NCBI GenBank assembly: GCA_947499725.1 | Contig: CANMPK010000001.1 | Location: 248,001-312,000, forward strand | Source of the DNA: an uncultured Paracoccaceae bacterium | GTDB lineage: Bacteria; Pseudomonadota; Alphaproteobacteria; Rhodobacterales; Rhodobacteraceae | Reading direction: 5' to 3' | Length of the DNA stretch: 64,000 nt | In this document: positions 55,158 through 64,000 of the stretch, one piece after another | Position numbering within the stretch: the stretch's first letter is position 1 | Layout of the letters: each line of letters begins with the position of its first letter | Notes under the pieces: model-generated | What the model saw: the letters and a program-made list of their open reading frames with translations, nothing else | What the model was told of the DNA's origin: nothing | Database searches by the model: none | Made by a program: the position numbers and the translations under genes

Positions 55158-55247
55158 GTACTTTCCCGACTTACCAATTTTGCGGCGTCGCAGCATCGTC
55201 GAAGTGAACCTGAATTCAATATTCATTTGCTTCCGTGTGAGGACGAT

Positions 55248-56567
55248 ATGGCATCAATTAGTATCTTTGGAATTGGATATGTCGGCGTGGTCGCCGCGGC
55301 ATGTTTGGCAAAAGACGGTCACAAGGTGATCGCAGTGGACGTCGACCAAGGTAAGATCGACGCAATCAATAACGGTCTGTCTCCAATCGTTGAAAACGGT
55401 TTGGACGAGCTGGTGAAAGAAACCGTCGACTCTGGCCGCCTTGAAGCGACAGACGACGTGCAATACGCCATCGACAACACATCGGCTTCTTTCGTCTGCG
55501 TGGGCACACCAAGTGCGCCAGACGGCTCTGTGGGTTTGAAATACGTCGAGATCGTATGTGAGAACATCGGTAAGGCGCTGGCCGCGAAAGAAGACTTCCA
55601 CTCTGTCATCATTCGCTCGACCATCGTTCCGGGCAGCACCGAGACCACCTGTATCCCAACCCTTGAAAAGGCCTCTGGCAAAACAGCAGGCGAGGGCTTT
55701 GGCGTAGGCTATTACCCAGAATTCCTGAGGGAAAGCACCGCGATCGAAGATTACTACGATCCGGGTCTGATCGTATTTGGTGCGCTGGAAGATAAAACAG
55801 CGGCAATCCTGACGGAAATCAACGAACAGCTGAATTGTGAAATTCACTGTGTCGACGTGCGCACAGCCGAGATGGTGAAATACACATCCAACACCTGGCG
55901 CGCGGTCAAAGTGACCTATGCCAATGAAATCGGAAACATCGCCAAAGCCTGCGGTCTGGATGGTCAGACTGTCATGGAAATCCTTTGCTCAGACACCAAG
56001 GTGAACATTTCGCCTTACTTCATGCGTCCGGGCTTTGCTTTCGGCGGGTCCTGCTTGCCGAAAGATGTGCGTGCATTGCGGCATCTGGCGCAAAGCAAAG
56101 GTGCCCCCTCTTTGCTGATGGATGCCGTTTTGCACGCCAACGAAGCGCAGATCGCAAAGGCCGAGCAGATGATCGCAGAGTCTAAGGTCAAAAAGATCGG
56201 TATGGTTGGCGTCAGCTTCAAACCGGGCACTGATGATCTGCGTGAAAGCCCATTGGCCGAATTGGCAGCGCGTCTGATCAAAAGCGGCGTGAACGTCGAG
56301 ATTTTCGATCCGTTTGTGCAAGAAGCCTATGAGAACGGTAATTCCACCGCCGGTCGCGGCAACGATGTCGTGCCTGATCTGGCGGCGCGTATCGTGCCAG
56401 AATTGGGCGCTTTGATCGAAAGCTCTGACGCAATCGTTGTCGGCAACATCTACAAAGAAGCTGTGGAAATGCTGGGCGAAGTCTCTGAAAGTAAACCGAT
56501 GTTCGATCTCACGCGCTTGCGCCGTGATCTGACAACATCCGGTGAATACGAAGGCATTTGCTGGTAA
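55248..56567 (+). CDS. algD: GDP-mannose 6-dehydrogenase
   Basis: AlgD oxidises GDP-mannose twice to GDP-mannuronate, the monomer donor of alginate. The 439-residue protein has the NAD motif ISIFGIGYVGVVAAACLAKD, YYPEFLRESTAIEDYYDPGL, the catalytic cysteine in FAFGGSCLPKDVRALRHLA, and VSFKPGTDDLRESPLAELA. The GSCLPKDVRAL form favours GMD over UDP-glucose dehydrogenase. The ATG at 55248 is used because TGAGGA precedes it; seven upstream codons are also open. It is the first gene of an alginate-type operon and is followed by alg8 within 6 bases. Confidence 0.93.
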   Translation: MASISIFGIGYVGVVAAACLAKDGHKVIAVDVDQGKIDAINNGLSPIVENGLDELVKETVDSGRLEATDDVQYAIDNTSASFVCVGTPSAPDGSVGLKYVEIVCENIGKALAAKEDFHSVIIRSTIVPGSTETTCIPTLEKASGKTAGEGFGVGYYPEFLRESTAIEDYYDPGLIVFGALEDKTAAILTEINEQLNCEIHCVDVRTAEMVKYTSNTWRAVKVTYANEIGNIAKACGLDGQTVMEILCSDTKVNISPYFMRPGFAFGGSCLPKDVRALRHLAQSKGAPSLLMDAVLHANEAQIAKAEQMIAESKVKKIGMVGVSFKPGTDDLRESPLAELAARLIKSGVNVEIFDPFVQEAYENGNSTAGRGNDVVPDLAARIVPELGALIESSDAIVVGNIYKEAVEMLGEVSESKPMFDLTRLRRDLTTSGEYEGICW

Positions 56568-56572
56568 ATCCG

Positions 56573-58039
56573 ATGCTGGGTCATATCGTATACTTCTCTG
56601 TCATTGTCCTTCTGGTGTCGCTGATCCCAGCCGAAAGGTTGGGCGCGGCCGAGGAAGCCCTGATTGTCATCGGGTTCCTGGGCGCGTGGCGCTACAGCTG
56701 GGCTTTGATCAACTTTACCAGAGCCATCTATTTCAGACGGTTTGCTTACCCAAGCCGTAAGGCGAAGGCCTTTGAAACTTACGATATGCGCCCGCGTCCG
56801 GCACATGCCTTTTTCCTAACCACAAGCTATAAGATTGAGCCGGACGTGACGATCCCCGTCTATTCCAGCGTCTTCCGCGCTGCGGCTCAATCTGAAGGTG
56901 GGGCCACCATTGTGTCATCCGTTGTGGATGGCGCAGATGAGCGGCTGATCCGCCAGATTTTCTCTTCGATGCCTGTCGACATGTCCGGTGTAAAACTGGT
57001 GGTGGACCGCATCCCAGGCACAGGCAAACGCGATGCTTTGGCCCGTGCGCTGGCTTTGATTGCCCGCGAGTGCCCGACAAAAGATGATATCGTGACCTTT
57101 GTCGATGGCGATAGCTGTGTGCCCGAAGACATCGTTGCGACTACCGCGCCTTTCTTCACCAATCCTAAAATTGGCGCGCTGACCACTGACGAAGCGGTCG
57201 ACATCCCTGACGAAGGCCTGTTCAAAGATTGGTTCGAGCTGCGCTTTGACCAACGACAGGTGATGATGTGCTCTATGGGCCTATCCAACCGCGTTCTGAC
57301 GTTGACGGGCCGTATGTCTGTCTTCCGCGCCGACCTTGCGACAGACCCTGATTTCATTCGCCTGGTGAAGGCGGATTATATCGACCACTGGCGCCTCGGC
57401 CGTGTGAACTTCCTGACCGGTGATGACAAATCCACGTGGTTCTGGCTGCTGAAAAATGGCTGGCAGTTGGCGTACTTGCCAGATGTGAAATCCGTCTCGA
57501 TGGAAACGCAGCCAAAGCCAGGTTTCTTCGACAGTGCGATCACGCTGATGGTACGCTGGTTTGGCAATATGCTGCGCACAAACGCACGCGCGCTGAAACT
57601 GCCACAGTCCAAAATCGGCCTGTTCACGTGGTGGTCGATCTTCGATCAAAACCTGTCGATTTGGACAACACTTGCAGGGCCGATCTCTGCCATTGCGGCG
57701 GCCATCTTCTTCGACCCAATTGTTATTCCCGCCTACATCGCTTGGGTAATGTTCACACGCTACATGTTTTGCTTGGCCATCTGCCTGTTCCGCGGCACCA
57801 GCTTTCCGGTCACCTATCCGTTCTTGCTGTATTTCGGCCAATTGGTCGGCGCCGCGGTCAAAAGCTTCGTGTTCTTCCGCTTGGATCGCCAGAAATGGAC
57901 CCGCCAAGCCACGGCTGGCCAGAAGAAAGCCAAGCTTCCGTTTTGGCAATCCATCCGCTTTTCAAGCTCCTTTTATCTCCACGCAATCGCGATCGGTTGG
58001 CTGTCCTTAGCCGTGCTTTTCCTGACCGGTGTCGCATAA
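56573..58039 (+). CDS. alg8: Alg8-like mannuronan synthase (GT2)
   Basis: This inner-membrane family 2 glycosyltransferase polymerises mannuronate from GDP-mannuronate. The 488 residues include two N-terminal membrane spans (IVYFSVIVLLVSLIPAERL and the following segment), a cytoplasmic GT2 domain with the metal aspartates in VTFVDGDSCVPEDIVAT, FLTGDDKSTWFWLLKNGWQL and the RW motif MVRWFGNMLRTNARAL, then about four C-terminal spans. The RWxGNMLR pattern is typical of Alg8. ATG 56573 is used; TTG 56558 overlapping algD is also possible. Neither has a strong ribosome site. Confidence 0.92.
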   Translation: MLGHIVYFSVIVLLVSLIPAERLGAAEEALIVIGFLGAWRYSWALINFTRAIYFRRFAYPSRKAKAFETYDMRPRPAHAFFLTTSYKIEPDVTIPVYSSVFRAAAQSEGGATIVSSVVDGADERLIRQIFSSMPVDMSGVKLVVDRIPGTGKRDALARALALIARECPTKDDIVTFVDGDSCVPEDIVATTAPFFTNPKIGALTTDEAVDIPDEGLFKDWFELRFDQRQVMMCSMGLSNRVLTLTGRMSVFRADLATDPDFIRLVKADYIDHWRLGRVNFLTGDDKSTWFWLLKNGWQLAYLPDVKSVSMETQPKPGFFDSAITLMVRWFGNMLRTNARALKLPQSKIGLFTWWSIFDQNLSIWTTLAGPISAIAAAIFFDPIVIPAYIAWVMFTRYMFCLAICLFRGTSFPVTYPFLLYFGQLVGAAVKSFVFFRLDRQKWTRQATAGQKKAKLPFWQSIRFSSSFYLHAIAIGWLSLAVLFLTGVA

Positions 58040-58060
58040 GTCTCTGAATTGGAACCAGAT

Positions 58061-59167
58061 ATGAGTAACGCAGAAATCACCCAATCCACCGACCAAGGCG
58101 CGCAGTCCATTCCGGATGGGTTTGTCTTTGAAGACGAGCATCCGCAACTGAAATTGCCGTTCACTGCCGCCATTGGAGACCGCAAACTCGAAGGTGAAAG
58201 CCTTTCCATCACAAAGGCGATTGTCTCAGGATTGCTGCCTCCTTTTGATGGGGAACGGGAAGAACTGGTAAGCCTGCGCTTTGATTTTGACGGTTTTTCG
58301 ATCAACATGTTTATCGAAGCTTTTGTCACGCAATCCGGCGAAAGCGACGATCCTCGTGTAACCCTACGCTTCGCAGATCCGACGGGCGAGCACCTTGCCG
58401 CTCTGCGCTACATTCTGAACAGCTTTATCGCAGGCCATGTCGTGAATATGGGGCAGCTTTTGGGCTTTACGGGCCCAACGGTTGTGAAGTCTCAACCAAA
58501 GCCGCTTGAAACACCAACCTCGCGCCGCATCATGAATGGTTTGCGCGCTGGCGCGGTCTTTGTGGCCGGTGTGACCTTGGTTTATGCAGCCACTACAGTT
58601 GTCTATAACCGTGTTGCCTTTCTGTATGAGGCCAATCCGGTGGTCTTATCCGTAGAGGGCCCTTCTTTGCGTGCCACATCGGCTGGCCAGATCACTTTTA
58701 TCAACACAGAGGCAGGGCAGGGCGATGTGGCCTATTCCATCCTGTCTACATCGGGTGATCTGCTGAGCACCCAAATGCCATGCGATTGCCAGATCGTTCT
58801 GACAGAAGGCATGACCACCGGTGCCACAGTTCTCGCGGGCGATCCGGTGCTGCAACTGGCTAATGAAGGCGCTGGCTTTGTTGGCGAAGCGACCGTTTCA
58901 GACGAAGGCATGGCACGCATCATCGCGGGCGATACGGCAGAGCTCGAAATGGCAAGTGGCCAGATCGTGCCGGTATCCCTCACCTTTAAACAAACAGCAG
59001 CTCTGGGTGGCATAGGTGTGCCAGCCAAGGTGGTTGTGTCGGAAGAATTTGAAAGCGCAACACAGTCTGGGGACGTTGGCCGTCTGCGCTTTCGAAACGG
59101 TTTCGCCGAAGATTGGCTGAAGCCGGTTGGTAACGCCATTGGCAGCCTGTTCGGAAAAGAATTTTAA
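58061..59167 (+). CDS. Alg44-like co-polymerase with degenerate PilZ-like domain
   Basis: The 368-residue protein has the Alg44 layout: an N-terminal PilZ-like domain (about 20-140), one membrane span (about 158-180, GAVFVAGVTLVYAATTVVYN), and a periplasmic HlyD-like part with ANPVVLSVEGPSLRATSAGQ and DPVLQLANEGAGFVGEA. Alg44 binds c-di-GMP and activates Alg8. Here the N-terminal RxxxR pair is missing (the segment reads EHPQLKLPFTAAIG) and the DxSxxG motif reads ESLSITKA. Response to c-di-GMP is therefore doubtful. The start is ATG 58061. It lies directly behind alg8. Confidence 0.82.
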   Translation: MSNAEITQSTDQGAQSIPDGFVFEDEHPQLKLPFTAAIGDRKLEGESLSITKAIVSGLLPPFDGEREELVSLRFDFDGFSINMFIEAFVTQSGESDDPRVTLRFADPTGEHLAALRYILNSFIAGHVVNMGQLLGFTGPTVVKSQPKPLETPTSRRIMNGLRAGAVFVAGVTLVYAATTVVYNRVAFLYEANPVVLSVEGPSLRATSAGQITFINTEAGQGDVAYSILSTSGDLLSTQMPCDCQIVLTEGMTTGATVLAGDPVLQLANEGAGFVGEATVSDEGMARIIAGDTAELEMASGQIVPVSLTFKQTAALGGIGVPAKVVVSEEFESATQSGDVGRLRFRNGFAEDWLKPVGNAIGSLFGKEF

Positions 59168-59214: not shown

Positions 59215-60621
59215 ATGGAGAAGGTTATGAAGGAAATTCACCCAATTATTCTGTGCGGAGGATCAGGCTCTCGTCTATGGCCTGTGTCTCGTGCACAAAG
59301 CCCGAAACAGTTCCAGCCTATCGCTGGTGCGGGCTCACTCTCGTTCTTCCAATCAACCATCCAACGCCACCGCATTGCGGGCTTTGCCAAGCCAACGGTT
59401 GTGACCGGTGTGGCCCACGCGCAAACCGTGATGCGCCAACTGGATGAGCTGCAATGTGACGCTGATGTCATTTGCGAACCTATGGGGCGTAACACAGGTC
59501 CAGCGGTGTTGGCGGCGGCAATCCATATCGCCAAAAAAGATCCAGAAGGTCTGTTGCTGGTCTTGCCATCCGATCACGTGATCACTGGCGAGTTGAACCA
59601 ACAAATCATGCAAATGCGCGAGTCTGCTGAAGCGGGGCGCATTGTGATCTTTGGTATCACCCCAGCCTATCCTGAAACCGGTTATGGCTACATCGTCGAT
59701 GGCGGGCCAATTCCAGCCTTTAGCAACCTGCACGAGGTAGAGCGTTTCGTTGAAAAGCCTCCTTTGCGCGAAGCTGCAGAACTGTTGGAGCGCGGCACAG
59801 CCTATTGGGCCTCTGGTATCTCTATGTTTACCGCATCGGAGATCATCAAAGAGATGCGCACCTACGATGAGACGACCTACAACACGGTCTTCTCTTCGAT
59901 CGATCAGGGTGAAATCAGCAATGACATGCTGTGCCTGCACCCGGATAGTTTCCGCCGTGCCACAAACGAACCAACCGAGCGTATCATCTTTGAACGTTCC
60001 AAAAAGGTTGCTCTGGCGCCACTTGATGTGGCGTGGGACGATGTGGGCTGCTGGACATCTATGCATGCCATTGGCAACGGGGATCAGCAGGGCAATGTCT
60101 TGCAAGGCGATGTTCTGGCGGTTGAAACCGAAAACGCCCTAGTGCGCGCAGACAAGCGCCTTGTGGCGGTTGTGGGCGTGTCCGATGTGATTGTGGTGGA
60201 TACCCCAGATGCGATCCTCGTGACCCAACGCGGCAAATGCCAAAGCGTGAAAAAGGTGGTTGAGGTTCTCAAAGAAGAACAGCGCCCCGAGGCTGTAGTT
60301 CCTTTGTCCAAAGACTTCCTTTGGGGCAAATCCACTCGCGTCATGCGCTCGGGCAATTTCGACATGACAGTGATCAAGATCAACCCAGGGGCCTCGATTA
60401 AGATCGATGCGATGCCAGGGCGTCAGTTGATTGCGGTTGGTGGTGACATTCAGGTCTTTGATGGCTTACGTCGCCAAGAAATCCCGATGGGTGAGCGTTT
60501 TGTTTTGCCCGCCCAAGGCCGCACCAGCCTGACCAACACCAAGACAGATTTCGTCGAAGCCTTGCTGGTCACGCTCAACAGCTCCGTTGAAAACCAAGTG
60601 CATATGGAGGCGGCGCAATAA
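59215..60621 (+). CDS. algA: mannose-1-phosphate guanylyltransferase (AlgA-like), degenerate isomerase domain
   Basis: The protein makes GDP-mannose from mannose 1-phosphate and GTP. It has 468 residues, the size of bifunctional AlgA/ManC. The guanylyltransferase motif is GGSGSRLWPVSRAQSPKQF, followed by EPMGRNTGPAVLAAA, LLVLPSDHVI, VERFVEKPP and DVAWDDVGCWTS. The C-terminal cupin region, where type II phosphomannose isomerases carry a QMHHHRxEHW metal motif, reads ASIKIDAMPGRQLIAVGGDI and has no histidines. Isomerase activity is probably lost; another gene must supply mannose 6-phosphate. The start follows GGAGGGG at nine bases. It overlaps the next gene by one base. Confidence 0.88.
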   Translation: MEKVMKEIHPIILCGGSGSRLWPVSRAQSPKQFQPIAGAGSLSFFQSTIQRHRIAGFAKPTVVTGVAHAQTVMRQLDELQCDADVICEPMGRNTGPAVLAAAIHIAKKDPEGLLLVLPSDHVITGELNQQIMQMRESAEAGRIVIFGITPAYPETGYGYIVDGGPIPAFSNLHEVERFVEKPPLREAAELLERGTAYWASGISMFTASEIIKEMRTYDETTYNTVFSSIDQGEISNDMLCLHPDSFRRATNEPTERIIFERSKKVALAPLDVAWDDVGCWTSMHAIGNGDQQGNVLQGDVLAVETENALVRADKRLVAVVGVSDVIVVDTPDAILVTQRGKCQSVKKVVEVLKEEQRPEAVVPLSKDFLWGKSTRVMRSGNFDMTVIKINPGASIKIDAMPGRQLIAVGGDIQVFDGLRRQEIPMGERFVLPAQGRTSLTNTKTDFVEALLVTLNSSVENQVHMEAAQ

Positions 60622-62129
60622 TGACGTCTCTTGCGCCATATCTTGCAGGCATCGGCCGCTCTGTTGCGGCCGGCCTTGTGGCTCTGATCTGTGCCGCGCC
60701 AGCAGGGGCAAACACGCAAGACGCCGTGGCTGCACTGTCCGAGCTTGACGCGCAAATGGCAGATGCGGCGCAATCTGATGCAACGGCAAGTTTTGCCCTG
60801 ATGCGGCCACCTGTCGATCCGGCTTTTGTACAATCGATTGATGCCCTCAAAGCAGCCCCAAAAGCAGAGGTGGTTTTAACGGATCTACGCATCATCCTTG
60901 CGCAAATGTCTCGTTCAGCAGGGGCAAATAACCAACTTTTGGTTCTGCGCGCCCAAGCCGCAGAGCAACCCAAAGCCCTGACAATCAAAAGCGGCACACT
61001 GTTTCTGGAGGATTTGAAGCAGATCGTGCAAACTCAGTATCCAGATGCGGGTTTGTTAGACGACACCGGCTTTCATGCGCCGATCGTCGTGTGGTCTGAT
61101 GCAACTTTGGTCTTACCCGACACAGCTCAGCTTGATCTAAATCGCTCTTCTGGCGCCTTTTTGGCCAGCTTTGGCAAACTGCAGATCAGCGGCGCAAGCA
61201 TCGCAGGGGTAGGGGCGGCAAACCCAAAGGTTGAAGCCTTCCGTCCGTTTGTCGCTGTGCTGGGCACTGGTTGGGCGGATATTGCTAACGGGCATTTCAG
61301 CAATCTAGGTTTTGGAAAAACAGCCGCCTTTAGTGGCGTCTCTGTGATTGGTGGCGGTTTGTTCCGCGCCCCAGAGCCAAGCAAAGTCATGAACTCTGTT
61401 TTTGAAAACATCGGCAGCCTGTCGGTACTAGGGGCAGAGTCACCAATTATTGAAAACAACGCTTTCCTGTCTGCCACGGATATACCTTTGACATTGCGCA
61501 AAGGCACTGACGCGCAGATCACTGGCAATCTCTTTCTGAGCTCTGAAGGCAAATCTGCATTGCGGCTGTCTGAAGGTATCAAAAACAGCACCATAACTCG
61601 AAATACATTCCTACAAGGCGTAGGGAATGGCATCGAACTGGTCGGGGCTGGCGTACAGACCAAGATCAGCGACAATATGATTTGGGGGCACGGCGGGGCA
61701 GGGATTTCGATCGACCGCTCCGATTGCGTCGCCATCACGAACAACAGCATCTTGCGCAGCGGCAAAAAGGGGATCTCCTTAAAAACATCCCGCAACGCAC
61801 AAGTTGCACAAAATCAGCTTTTCAAAGGCCGCAGCAGCGCCATCCAAGTGTCAGAGCAGCCGGAAGGCGCCCAAACACAGATCCACAACAATCTGATCGT
61901 GCAAAACCGTATTGGCCTGTCGCTGATCGGCGCGGCGGATGTGGCGTTGCAAGGCAACGATTTAACTCTGCAATTCCCACGTTTGCTTGAAGGCGACATT
62001 GCTTTCCAAGCAGGCCCGCTCTTGCAAGATCTCAAAGGGGCAGAGGCCATTCATCTGGCATCGACAAGCCTATCGCTCGCGGGGCTTGAACCCATGTCCT
62101 GTCCATCCCCTCAAGGTGAAGAAAGTTAA
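60621..62129 (+). CDS. AlgG-like periplasmic beta-helix protein lacking the DPHD motif
   Basis: The 502-residue protein has a signal peptide (VALICAAPAGANTQ) and a right-handed parallel beta-helix from about residue 180 onwards (repeats such as NSVFENIG, NNAFLS, GNLFLS, RNTFLQG, NNSILRSG). The N-terminal half matches AlgG around ALTIKSGTLFLEDLKQ, APIVVWSDATLVLP and GAFLASFGKLQISG, then EAFRPFVAVLGTGWADIANG. AlgG epimerises mannuronate to guluronate using a DPHD motif. At the matching place this protein reads ATDIPLTLRKGTDAQITGN, with no DPHD. It is probably a non-catalytic scaffold or a different activity. It lies between algA and algI. Confidence 0.8.
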   Translation: MTSLAPYLAGIGRSVAAGLVALICAAPAGANTQDAVAALSELDAQMADAAQSDATASFALMRPPVDPAFVQSIDALKAAPKAEVVLTDLRIILAQMSRSAGANNQLLVLRAQAAEQPKALTIKSGTLFLEDLKQIVQTQYPDAGLLDDTGFHAPIVVWSDATLVLPDTAQLDLNRSSGAFLASFGKLQISGASIAGVGAANPKVEAFRPFVAVLGTGWADIANGHFSNLGFGKTAAFSGVSVIGGGLFRAPEPSKVMNSVFENIGSLSVLGAESPIIENNAFLSATDIPLTLRKGTDAQITGNLFLSSEGKSALRLSEGIKNSTITRNTFLQGVGNGIELVGAGVQTKISDNMIWGHGGAGISIDRSDCVAITNNSILRSGKKGISLKTSRNAQVAQNQLFKGRSSAIQVSEQPEGAQTQIHNNLIVQNRIGLSLIGAADVALQGNDLTLQFPRLLEGDIAFQAGPLLQDLKGAEAIHLASTSLSLAGLEPMSCPSPQGEES

Positions 62130-62131
62130 TT

Positions 62132-63574
62132 ATGGTCTTTTCATCTGAATCTTTTCTCTTTCTCTTTTTACCAGCCTTTCTGGCGCTCTATTACCTGACG
62201 CCGTCTCGGTTCCGCTCTTTCACCATCTTGTTTGGCAGCTACCTGTTCTATGCGTGGTGGCGCGTTGACTTCCTTGGCTTGCTCTTCTTGACCACGGCTT
62301 TTGCATACTTGATTGGCCAGAAAGTTTCGCAACACCGCGGCACACCGCGCGGGCAGCTTTATCTGACCATCGGCATCATCGGCTGTTTGGGCGTGCTGGG
62401 TATCTTCAAATACCTGAACTTCTTTATCGATAGCTTTGCTATGCTTGTGGGCACAGACGCGGCTGGGCTGGGTATTCACTGGCACCTAATCCTGCCGATT
62501 GGGATTTCCTTCTACGTGTTCCAAGCGCTCAGCTATCTGATCGATGTGAACCGCGGCGACGCCACAGCAGACGCCAGCTTCATCGACTTTGCTGCCTTCA
62601 TAGCGCTCTTCCCGCAGCTGATCGCGGGGCCAATCCTGCGTTACAAAGACCTAGAAGATCAGTTCCGCGAGCGTCAGCACAGTGTCGAGCTGTTCTGTGA
62701 CGGTCTGGCACGTTTCCTGATTGGTTTGGCCAAGAAAGTTCTGCTGGCTGACGCCGTCGCGCCTCTGGCAGATGTGGTGTTCGGCGCAGACAGCCCTGGC
62801 ATGATGATCGCTTGGGCCGGCGCCATGGCCTATATGTTGCAGCTTTATTTTGACTTCTCGGGCTATAGCGATATGGCGATTGGTCTGGGTAAGATGATGG
62901 GCTTCCGCTTTCTGGAAAACTTCCGCTTCCCCTATATCAGCCGCTCGATCACCGAGTTCTGGCGCCGTTGGCATATCTCTTTGTCCAACTGGCTGCGCGA
63001 TTACCTCTACATCTCGCTCGGCGGCAACCGCAAAGGGCCAACACGCACCTATTTTAACTTGATGGCGGTGATGGTGCTGGGCGGTCTATGGCACGGCGCG
63101 AACTGGACCTTCGTGCTCTGGGGCTTCTGGCATGGCGGTCTTCTGGCAGCAGAGCGTTTCACAGGCTGGGACAAACGCGCCAAAGATCACTGGTATGCGC
63201 TACCGATGACGCTGTTCTTCGTGCTGATCGGTTGGGTCATGTTCCGCGCTACCCATGTGGGCGAAGGTTTTGCGGTCTATGCAGGGCTATTCGGATTTAA
63301 CGGTCTCTGGGGCGATACAGCTTTGTTTTACGAGATCACCCGTGAAAGCATCTCTTTCGCTTTGATCGCCGCAGTTGTTGTCTTCATCGAGCCACGCCTC
63401 TTTGCCTTCTTCTCCAAAGATGATGGCGTATCCGTGGGCAGCGATGGCAGCGCCGTCGCCACTGGCTCAACTGTGCAAGCGCTGGGCGTCGTTGCGGCGG
63501 GTATCTTCGGGGCGCTCGCGATCCTGAAGCTGGCCGAGCAAAGCTTCTCTCCTTTCCTGTATTTCCAATTCTAA
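62132..63574 (+). CDS. algI: AlgI-like MBOAT O-acetyltransferase
   Basis: The 480-residue inner-membrane protein belongs to the MBOAT family that passes acetyl groups to periplasmic alginate acetylation proteins. It has about ten or more membrane spans. Features include FLLPAFLALYYLTPSRFRSF (first spans), LPIGISFYVFQALSYLIDVN, FPQLIAGPILRYKDLEDQF, ITEFWRRWHISLSNWLRDYL, and the active histidine region LGGLWHGANWTFVLWGFWHG. It starts two bases after the AlgG-like stop. Confidence 0.94.
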   Translation: MVFSSESFLFLFLPAFLALYYLTPSRFRSFTILFGSYLFYAWWRVDFLGLLFLTTAFAYLIGQKVSQHRGTPRGQLYLTIGIIGCLGVLGIFKYLNFFIDSFAMLVGTDAAGLGIHWHLILPIGISFYVFQALSYLIDVNRGDATADASFIDFAAFIALFPQLIAGPILRYKDLEDQFRERQHSVELFCDGLARFLIGLAKKVLLADAVAPLADVVFGADSPGMMIAWAGAMAYMLQLYFDFSGYSDMAIGLGKMMGFRFLENFRFPYISRSITEFWRRWHISLSNWLRDYLYISLGGNRKGPTRTYFNLMAVMVLGGLWHGANWTFVLWGFWHGGLLAAERFTGWDKRAKDHWYALPMTLFFVLIGWVMFRATHVGEGFAVYAGLFGFNGLWGDTALFYEITRESISFALIAAVVVFIEPRLFAFFSKDDGVSVGSDGSAVATGSTVQALGVVAAGIFGALAILKLAEQSFSPFLYFQF

Positions 63575-63584
63575 GAGGTTGATT

Positions 63585-64000
63585 GTGTCTTATCGTCTAG
63601 CCCTAAAACTGACATTGCCAATCGCCTTCTTCGGCTATGCGGCCTTTGCCAATGTGGCGCTGTTTCAATCTGATCTGGAAAAGCCTGATCTGGGCTCCGT
63701 CTTTAACGGAGGCGTCAGCAAATCCATCGATACGCTCTACCGCGGAAACCTACCACACCGTGACACAGCGGTCGGTTGGATCGGCGCCGCCCGCTACGTT
63801 CTTCTAAGTGAAGGCCGCGATGGCGTGGTCGACGGTAAAAACGGCTGGCTCTTTTCTGATGAAGAATACCGCCCAGTGGCGAGCGAAGGCCAAGACATTG
63901 CCGAGGCGATGAGCTTTATCACCGACGCCAAAGTCCAACTGGCCGAGGCAGGCGCGACATTGGTGATGGTGCCGCTGCCAAGCAAGTTGGACATTTCAGA
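63585..64000 (+). CDS. AlgJ/AlgX-like alginate O-acetyltransferase, 5' part
   Basis: The gene runs off the window; 138 codons are visible. The start is GTG at 63585, with AGAGG about eight bases upstream, giving MSYRLALKLTLPIAFFGYAA, an N-terminal membrane anchor. The following sequence (DGVVDGKNGWLFSDEEYRP and AEAGATLVMVPLPSKLDIS) matches the start of the SGNH-like ALGX/ALGJ domain. It should acetylate mannuronate residues in the periplasm with acetyl groups from AlgI. The catalytic motifs lie beyond the window. Confidence 0.85.
   Translation, partial: MSYRLALKLTLPIAFFGYAAFANVALFQSDLEKPDLGSVFNGGVSKSIDTLYRGNLPHRDTAVGWIGAARYVLLSEGRDGVVDGKNGWLFSDEEYRPVASEGQDIAEAMSFITDAKVQLAEAGATLVMVPLPSKLDIS

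Follow-up and report, generated by a model that had tools for sequence, protein, structure and literature searches.

What becomes of an epimerase of alginate biosynthesis that has kept its fold and its place in the gene cluster and lost the residues with which it epimerises? This question is raised by a gene in a stretch of 64,000 nucleotides (hereafter the window) from an uncultured Paracoccaceae bacterium (assembly GCA_947499725.1, contig CANMPK010000001.1, positions 248,001 to 312,000 of the forward strand). An earlier note on the window had placed at 60621-62129 a beta-helix protein resembling the C5-epimerase AlgG but without its DPHD motif, and the open reading frame, of 502 amino acids on the forward strand, stands at those coordinates. 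Judged from the aligned sequences, the loss of the epimerase site is real and clade-wide, in a retained AlgG relative encoded inside what looks like a working cluster for a mannuronate polymer. We consider it likely that this relative is a pseudo-epimerase, retained to guide the polymer within a system that secretes polymannuronate.

The protein is an AlgG homologue. Its N-terminal part, with GAFLASFGKLQISG and EAFRPF, aligns with AlgG as the earlier note had it, and about the first 30 residues likely form a signal peptide. The NCBIfam AlgG model (NF038177) gives the sequence 36.8 bits (E 1.8e-9) and thereby leaves it far short of the equivalog cut-off of 700 bits, which no protein in 295 genomes of the family reaches. 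As a single query the protein matched the AlgG structures of the PDB (4ozz and 4nk6) at E values of 3e-6 to 5e-6, and a profile of 20 relatives matched them at 3e-39, with NosD and AlgE-type epimerases following at 4e-8 and weaker. The AlphaFold model (predicted local distance difference test score 87.3, predicted template modelling score 0.87) contains the AlgG fold, including its N-terminal part, over residues 63-450. The four best structure matches are all AlgG (4nk6 at Z 35.9, 2.3 Å over 370 residues), and the next is AlgE4 (Z 26.9); NosD reaches Z 26.3 and the RbmB lyase Z 24.3. Alginate and pectate lyases among the matches listed all score under AlgG by profile and by fold; the earlier note had left room for closer similarity to a lyase, and AlgG is the nearest of the families compared in both respects. 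An identity as NosD (PF05048) or as a Beta_helix protein of Pfam was rejected: AlgG is the better match by profile and fold, the neighbours are alg genes, the best NosD stretch spans residues 336-448 only, and no nos cluster surrounds the gene.

The epimerase site itself is gone. Where AlgG reads YGIDPHDRS the protein reads IPLTLR-KG (residues 288-295), one residue shorter since the second Asp has no counterpart, and the absence of DPHD described in the earlier note is borne out. Column by column, Tyr314 is replaced by Ile288, Asp317 by Thr291, His319 by Arg293 and Arg345 by Glu318, and Asp320 is deleted; His319, Asp320 and Arg345 carry the numbers that we take them to have in AlgG, and Asp317 is numbered after the D317A variant named in the title of a PDB entry. 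Tyr314 and the DPHD His are taken from a 2015 review (PMC4444821). Furthermore, the alignment of homologues that the earlier note had proposed as a check reveals a clade-wide loss. Across the 47 aligned sequences without DPHD (44 remain at an identity limit of 90%, the others being the near-duplicates L087, L038 and L141), the catalytic His and Tyr314 are retained in none, Asp317 in one and Arg345 in three, and the position of Asp320 is a gap in all 47. The 15 DPHD rows used for comparison were chosen by the motif, so that their 15/15 Asp317, His319 and Asp320 are given by construction; Tyr314 and Arg345, columns not used for picking, are also kept in 15/15. An unpicked control comes from 398 genomes sampled from the phylum: all 11 of their sequences that exceed the NCBIfam AlgG cut-off carry YGxDPHD.

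That the protein remains an epimerase, with the chemistry performed by Arg293 and Arg315 or by residues of a neighbouring coil, appears most improbable. Arg293 does occupy the His column, where Arg or Lys is found in 14/47 rows, and Arg315 is Lys or Arg in 38/44; however, the His column otherwise holds S, T, A, V, L, I, Q or D (33/47), and Tyr314 and Arg345 are lost as well. Within columns 240-400 of the clade no His or Tyr column reaches 18/44 and acids reach at most 26/44, and consequently no clear replacement site emerges. The earlier note had considered that another coil might supply equivalent residues; column conservation, as distinct from a superposition of side chains, offers no clear candidate. 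Nor does a second epimerase come into view. The window's own genome holds 22 codon matches to DPHD, 14 of them inside frames of at least 60 residues and none, by eye, of the form YG-x-DPHD, and the stricter YG-x-DPHD codon pattern was found in 0/22 clade genomes and in both positive controls (2/2), although an epimerase of DGHD type would escape both patterns. From these alignments we infer that the 502-residue protein is inactive as an epimerase.

In a tree of 59 rows (IQ-TREE) a single branch, supported at 100/100, separates the 44 DPHD-less from the 15 DPHD sequences; the placement of three long branches, L142 (Rhizobium), L022 and L019, is unsure. The tree is unrooted and does not fix the direction of change. 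Since DPHD is common to AlgG and AlgE epimerases (PMC4444821), loss is the simpler reading. We propose that a lineage of AlgG relatives, represented by Rhodobacterales records and at least one Rhizobium plasmid, would have lost its C5-epimerase site, probably once. Two cysteines and a C-terminal tail of the clade also occur in two alphaproteobacterial AlgG sequences with DPHD (L143, from Rhizobium gallicum, and L156), a pattern consistent with the clade having a functional AlgG as its ancestor. The Asn ladder is common to both sets.

Long DPHD-less relatives are present in 20 of the 295 family genomes, the window's own included. A further genome, G159, has a partial gene at a contig end, which was left out of the counts (L023), as was L176, a repeat of the L141 cluster. 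Two family genomes carry AlgG-like genes with YGIDPHD (L024 and L026); in the remaining eight genomes with a match, only short beta-helix stretches matched. The DPHD-less gene occurs in 3/9 genomes of the genus, and a near-copy of the gene of Cognatishimia sp. 1_MG-2023 is found in a genome of that same genus, which makes Cognatishimia the probable source of the window. Among 289 genomes of the class the top match besides the own protein was L058 (95.8 bits), with YGVDPHD, and the remaining matches were weaker. A contig collection contributed 30 further loci, labelled Rhodobacterales except for one labelled only Alphaproteobacteria; these were found with a close alignment of seven members, the 20-member alignment being too diverse for a pattern and a single-protein scan matching nothing. 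Twelve plasmid records also matched, and of four examined those of Loktanella salsilacus, Tateyamaria omphalii and Rhizobium sp. T136 are DPHD-less and that of Rhizobium gallicum has DPHD. Note that L058 and three AlgG-like proteins outside the clade with other motifs (L035, L157 and L158) belong to neither comparison set. In genome G271, of the same family, L035 (1291-3132) encodes an AlgG-like beta-helix whose motif reads YGVDGHDD, not far from a synthase resembling Alg8 (31% identity), possibly another uronan system. Two genomes of the family (L166 in G040, L167 in G234) have intact YGIDPHD AlgG-like genes with no other alg gene detected by blast with the window's alg proteins in stretches of 19 kb.

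The clade has conserved features of its own (Table 1). Lys or Arg is newly conserved at columns 286 (30/44), 315, 335 (26/44) and 383 (33/44), and is common to the DPHD rows as well at column 388 (37/44); at these five columns the window's protein has T286, R315, G335, K383 and K388. The new charged conservation in columns 240-400 is mostly of Lys and Arg and would fit the binding of a polyanion, with Arg315 a possible polymer-binding residue. Cys369 and Cys494 may form a disulfide.

Table 1. Coordinates of the AlgG-like protein, its features and the neighbouring alg genes within the window
Feature	Positions	Strand	Basis or remark
AlgG-like beta-helix protein without DPHD, 502 aa	60621..62129	+	ATG start; NCBIfam, PDB, profile and predicted fold
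Former catalytic coil, residues 285-297, ATDIPLTLRKGTD replacing VYGIDPHDRS	61473..61511	+	Alignment, codons read
Arg315	61563..61565	+	K/R in 38/44 clade rows, Ile in 15/15 DPHD rows
Glu318 at the place of AlgG Arg345	61572..61574	+	Alignment
Cys369	61725..61727	+	44/44 clade rows; also in two alphaproteobacterial DPHD AlgG
C-terminal motif GND-x-x-x-QFPR-x-x-x-GD, residues 445-459	61953..61997	+	Strong clade conservation; recognisable in Rhizobium gallicum DPHD AlgG
Cys494	62100..62102	+	42/44 clade rows
algD, GDP-mannose 6-dehydrogenase	55227..56567	+	Best PDB match 1mfz, 428 bits, full length; UDP-glucose dehydrogenase next, 258 bits
alg8, GT2 synthase	56558..58039	+	DGD and other polar residues kept
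alg44-like	58049..59167	+	PilZ 13.5 bits, below cut-off; HlyD-like part; RxxxR pair absent
algA/manC, mannose-1-phosphate guanylyltransferase/isomerase family	59215..60621	+	362.7 bits, just under NCBIfam cut-off of 372.95
algI-like MBOAT protein	62132..63574	+	Family match, kept polar residues
algJ-like	63579..64000	+	Continues past window end

The gene lies inside an alginate biosynthesis cluster in which the GDP-mannose dehydrogenase and Alg8 carry residues of catalytic type. Genes are ordered algD, alg8, alg44-like, algA, algG-like, algI, algJ, a small Sel1 protein, algX-like, algF, a large Sel1 protein, algL-like and a LuxR regulator, those from the small Sel1 protein to the AlgL-like protein lying beyond the window; the true start of algD is probably a few codons inside the annotated frame. 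This arrangement recurs: in most loci the algG-like gene has algA on its upstream side and either algI or the gene of the small Sel1 protein after it. In 34 loci (33 DPHD-less and L143, some cut by contig ends), blast detected AlgA in 33, Alg8, AlgX and the large Sel1 protein in 32 each, AlgD and Alg44 in 31 each, AlgL in 30, AlgF in 10 and AlgI in 9. Comparison of the clade with the DPHD and Pseudomonas-type sets gave 54 invariant polar residues in Alg8, 46 in AlgD and 76 in AlgI, with at most one exception in the clade. Since these residues are kept, the catalytic loss looks specific and the synthase side does not appear decayed. After the cluster come two large haemagglutinin-like filamentous proteins (L003:4044-12206, 2720 aa, and L003:14176-15999), the first with a C-terminal end that by eye resembles an HNH-type domain.

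AlgX, which requires D174, H176 and S269 (PMC4148444), provides a second case of a retained protein without its site. The triad is intact in the window's own cluster, which has AlgI, and the D-x-H and GTS elements are kept in all 17 DPHD-less clusters with AlgI (10/10 and 7/7 further distinct). In all 24 DPHD-less clusters without AlgI (22/22 and 2/2; L089-L107, L113, L117, L144, L178 and L179), the His of AlgX is replaced by R, K or Q (22, 1 and 1 cases) and the Ser by E or D, and the Asp is kept. No AlgI homologue was found in 8/10 searched genomes with such clusters, and the other two have one elsewhere, at 55-57% identity. L170, whose contig has no AlgX, was left out, the protein aligned for it being its AlgJ. 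The triad-less proteins are still AlgX-like (profile E 5e-45; Z 34.5 to 4knc, 3.5 Å over 386 residues; Foldseek E 1e-29). All 24 fall in a single clade of the AlgG tree, which points to one event of loss followed by long retention. The association with AlgI is limited to the DPHD-less clade, since in R. gallicum (L143, one of the DPHD rows) AlgX is intact and no AlgI was found within the 25 kb of the locus. Retention of a triad-less AlgX where AlgI is absent fits the report that in Pseudomonas AlgI, AlgJ or AlgF is dispensable for secretion (PMC9734138).

How could such proteins be of use? A pseudo-epimerase may have been kept because AlgG has a second job, which would consist of holding or guiding the nascent polyanion through the periplasm to the exporter and protecting it from degradation. 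According to the 2015 review, Pseudomonas without AlgG yields only unsaturated oligomers, and with a mutated AlgG mannuronan can be made (PMC4444821). The 502-residue protein would bind the polymer, and this polymer, going by the genes of the cluster, would be polymannuronate free of guluronate; the presence of AlgI, AlgJ, AlgF and AlgX leads us to propose that it is O-acetylated. The suggestion of the earlier note that a scaffold-only AlgG is plausible gains support, in that the protein is kept beside an intact-looking synthase and AlgX is likewise kept after triad loss in a sister branch, although the scaffold role is our deduction. We lean slightly towards a broader proposal, that in a marine polymannuronate system several modifying enzymes have turned structural: AlgG siteless throughout, AlgX triad-less where the acetyl donor is absent, AlgL without its His, and Alg44 without its cyclic di-GMP (c-di-GMP) arginines. 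The last of these concerns RxxxR, which together with DxSxxG we take to be the PilZ c-di-GMP motif of Alg44. By eye the RxxxR pair is present in 0/32 clade rows (of the two Arg, L113 keeps just the first) versus 4/4 Pseudomonas-type rows, and DxSxxG is not recognisable in the window's Alg44-like protein. An EHP motif adjoins the place of the missing pair in 32/32 clade rows.

Several observations weigh against this account. The His is missing from two AlgG-like proteins that fall outside the clade, namely L157 (G750; YGVDAAD, 65.8 bits) and L158 (G754; YAIDISN, 71.8 bits, both scored with NF038177), where the loss takes another form, and G754 also carries a normal AlgG (L153); loss of DPHD is consequently not peculiar to the clade, and it may be commoner and have other meanings. 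The 24 cases of AlgX loss fall in one clade and do not count as many independent events. P. aeruginosa AlgG is reported not to pull down AlgK (PMC9734138). The comparison of evolutionary rates, where faster change would have been a sign of lost catalysis, is mixed and was not taken as support: median divergence ratios in the clade and in Pseudomonas-type clusters are 1.74 versus 1.83 for AlgG/Alg8 and 1.29 versus 1.62 for AlgG/AlgA, with no clear sign of relaxed evolution, but identities point the opposite way (median 32.1% over 561 pairs versus 61.7% for AlgG; 71.5% versus 74.6% for AlgD). This low identity and the patchy distribution noted above would suit decaying clusters in which the protein persists as a weakly constrained relic. 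Such decay is very unlikely in our judgement, given that the 20 family members have long open frames (the G082 match shows one TAG when read beyond the gene), the retention of the Asn ladder, the Cys pair and the C-terminal motif, and the kept polar residues of the neighbours.

The other adverse points concern the chemistry of the clusters. The AlgL-like protein (L003:167-1198 and relatives) reads NLRAW (NLRGW in L094) in place of the NHxYW of PL5 in 30/30 and 4/4 further distinct clade rows; by eye it keeps the equivalents of Arg249 and Tyr256, and the R. gallicum protein has an intact NHRYW. The H202A variant of P. aeruginosa AlgL, in which no activity could be detected in vitro, behaved normally in cells (PMC8829089). 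The AlgE porin family (PF13372) had no match in the whole genome, although a diverged porin could escape this search. With AlgL lacking the PL5 His, Alg44 altered and no AlgE porin found, the polymer and its export may differ from known alginate. In addition, partly conserved acids lie near the former site at columns 263 (26/44), 379 (22/44) and 386 (25/44), and Asp447 is kept in 39/44 rows. The altered AlgL-like and Alg44-like proteins, the new Lys and Arg columns and the acids at 379 and 386 would agree with a beta-helix repurposed as a different enzyme, such as a lyase or a hydrolase, acting on some polymer that is not mannuronan. We regard this as unlikely, because in columns 240-400 no His or Tyr column reaches 18/44 and no acid exceeds 26/44, AlgG is the nearest fold by a wide margin over AlgE4 and RbmB, and the cluster has a dehydrogenase nearest to GDP-mannose dehydrogenase and an Alg8 with its polar residues kept.

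The proposed pseudo-epimerase can be set beside systems already described. With AlgG the protein shares the N-terminal part and right-handed beta-helix, FRPF, the Asn ladder and the place in the alg cluster; it differs in having lost YGxDPHD and Arg345, in the one-residue deletion, in its GND..QFPR..GD tail, and in its low score against the family model. Mannuronan is made by laboratory strains with a mutated AlgG (Gimmestad 2003 and others, as cited in PMC4444821), which, as proposed for the clade, keep the protein without epimerase activity and with a polymer expected to be all mannuronate; in the clade the loss of the site is natural and clade-wide. The terminal alginate O-acetyltransferase AlgX (4knc, 7ula) resembles the AlgG case as a second periplasmic enzyme kept after loss of its triad when AlgI is absent, and differs in that the window's own cluster retains the complete triad. 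Atypical alginate operons have been described in which some bacteria lost algKE or modification loci (PMC7112194); that account, in the portion accessible to us, stays at the level of gene presence and does not mention catalytic-residue loss in a retained AlgG or AlgX. Our literature search, which covered few subscription journals, found no publication on the DPHD-less clade.

According to the 2015 review, no producer of mannuronan is known in nature (PMC4444821). The DPHD-less clusters predict natural mannuronan producers, counter to that statement. On the broader proposal, evolution would have uncoupled what AlgG and AlgX do as scaffolds from what they do as enzymes. The non-catalytic role of AlgG becomes testable in natural proteins. 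Pure or acetylated mannuronan from a marine source could also be of use as a material.

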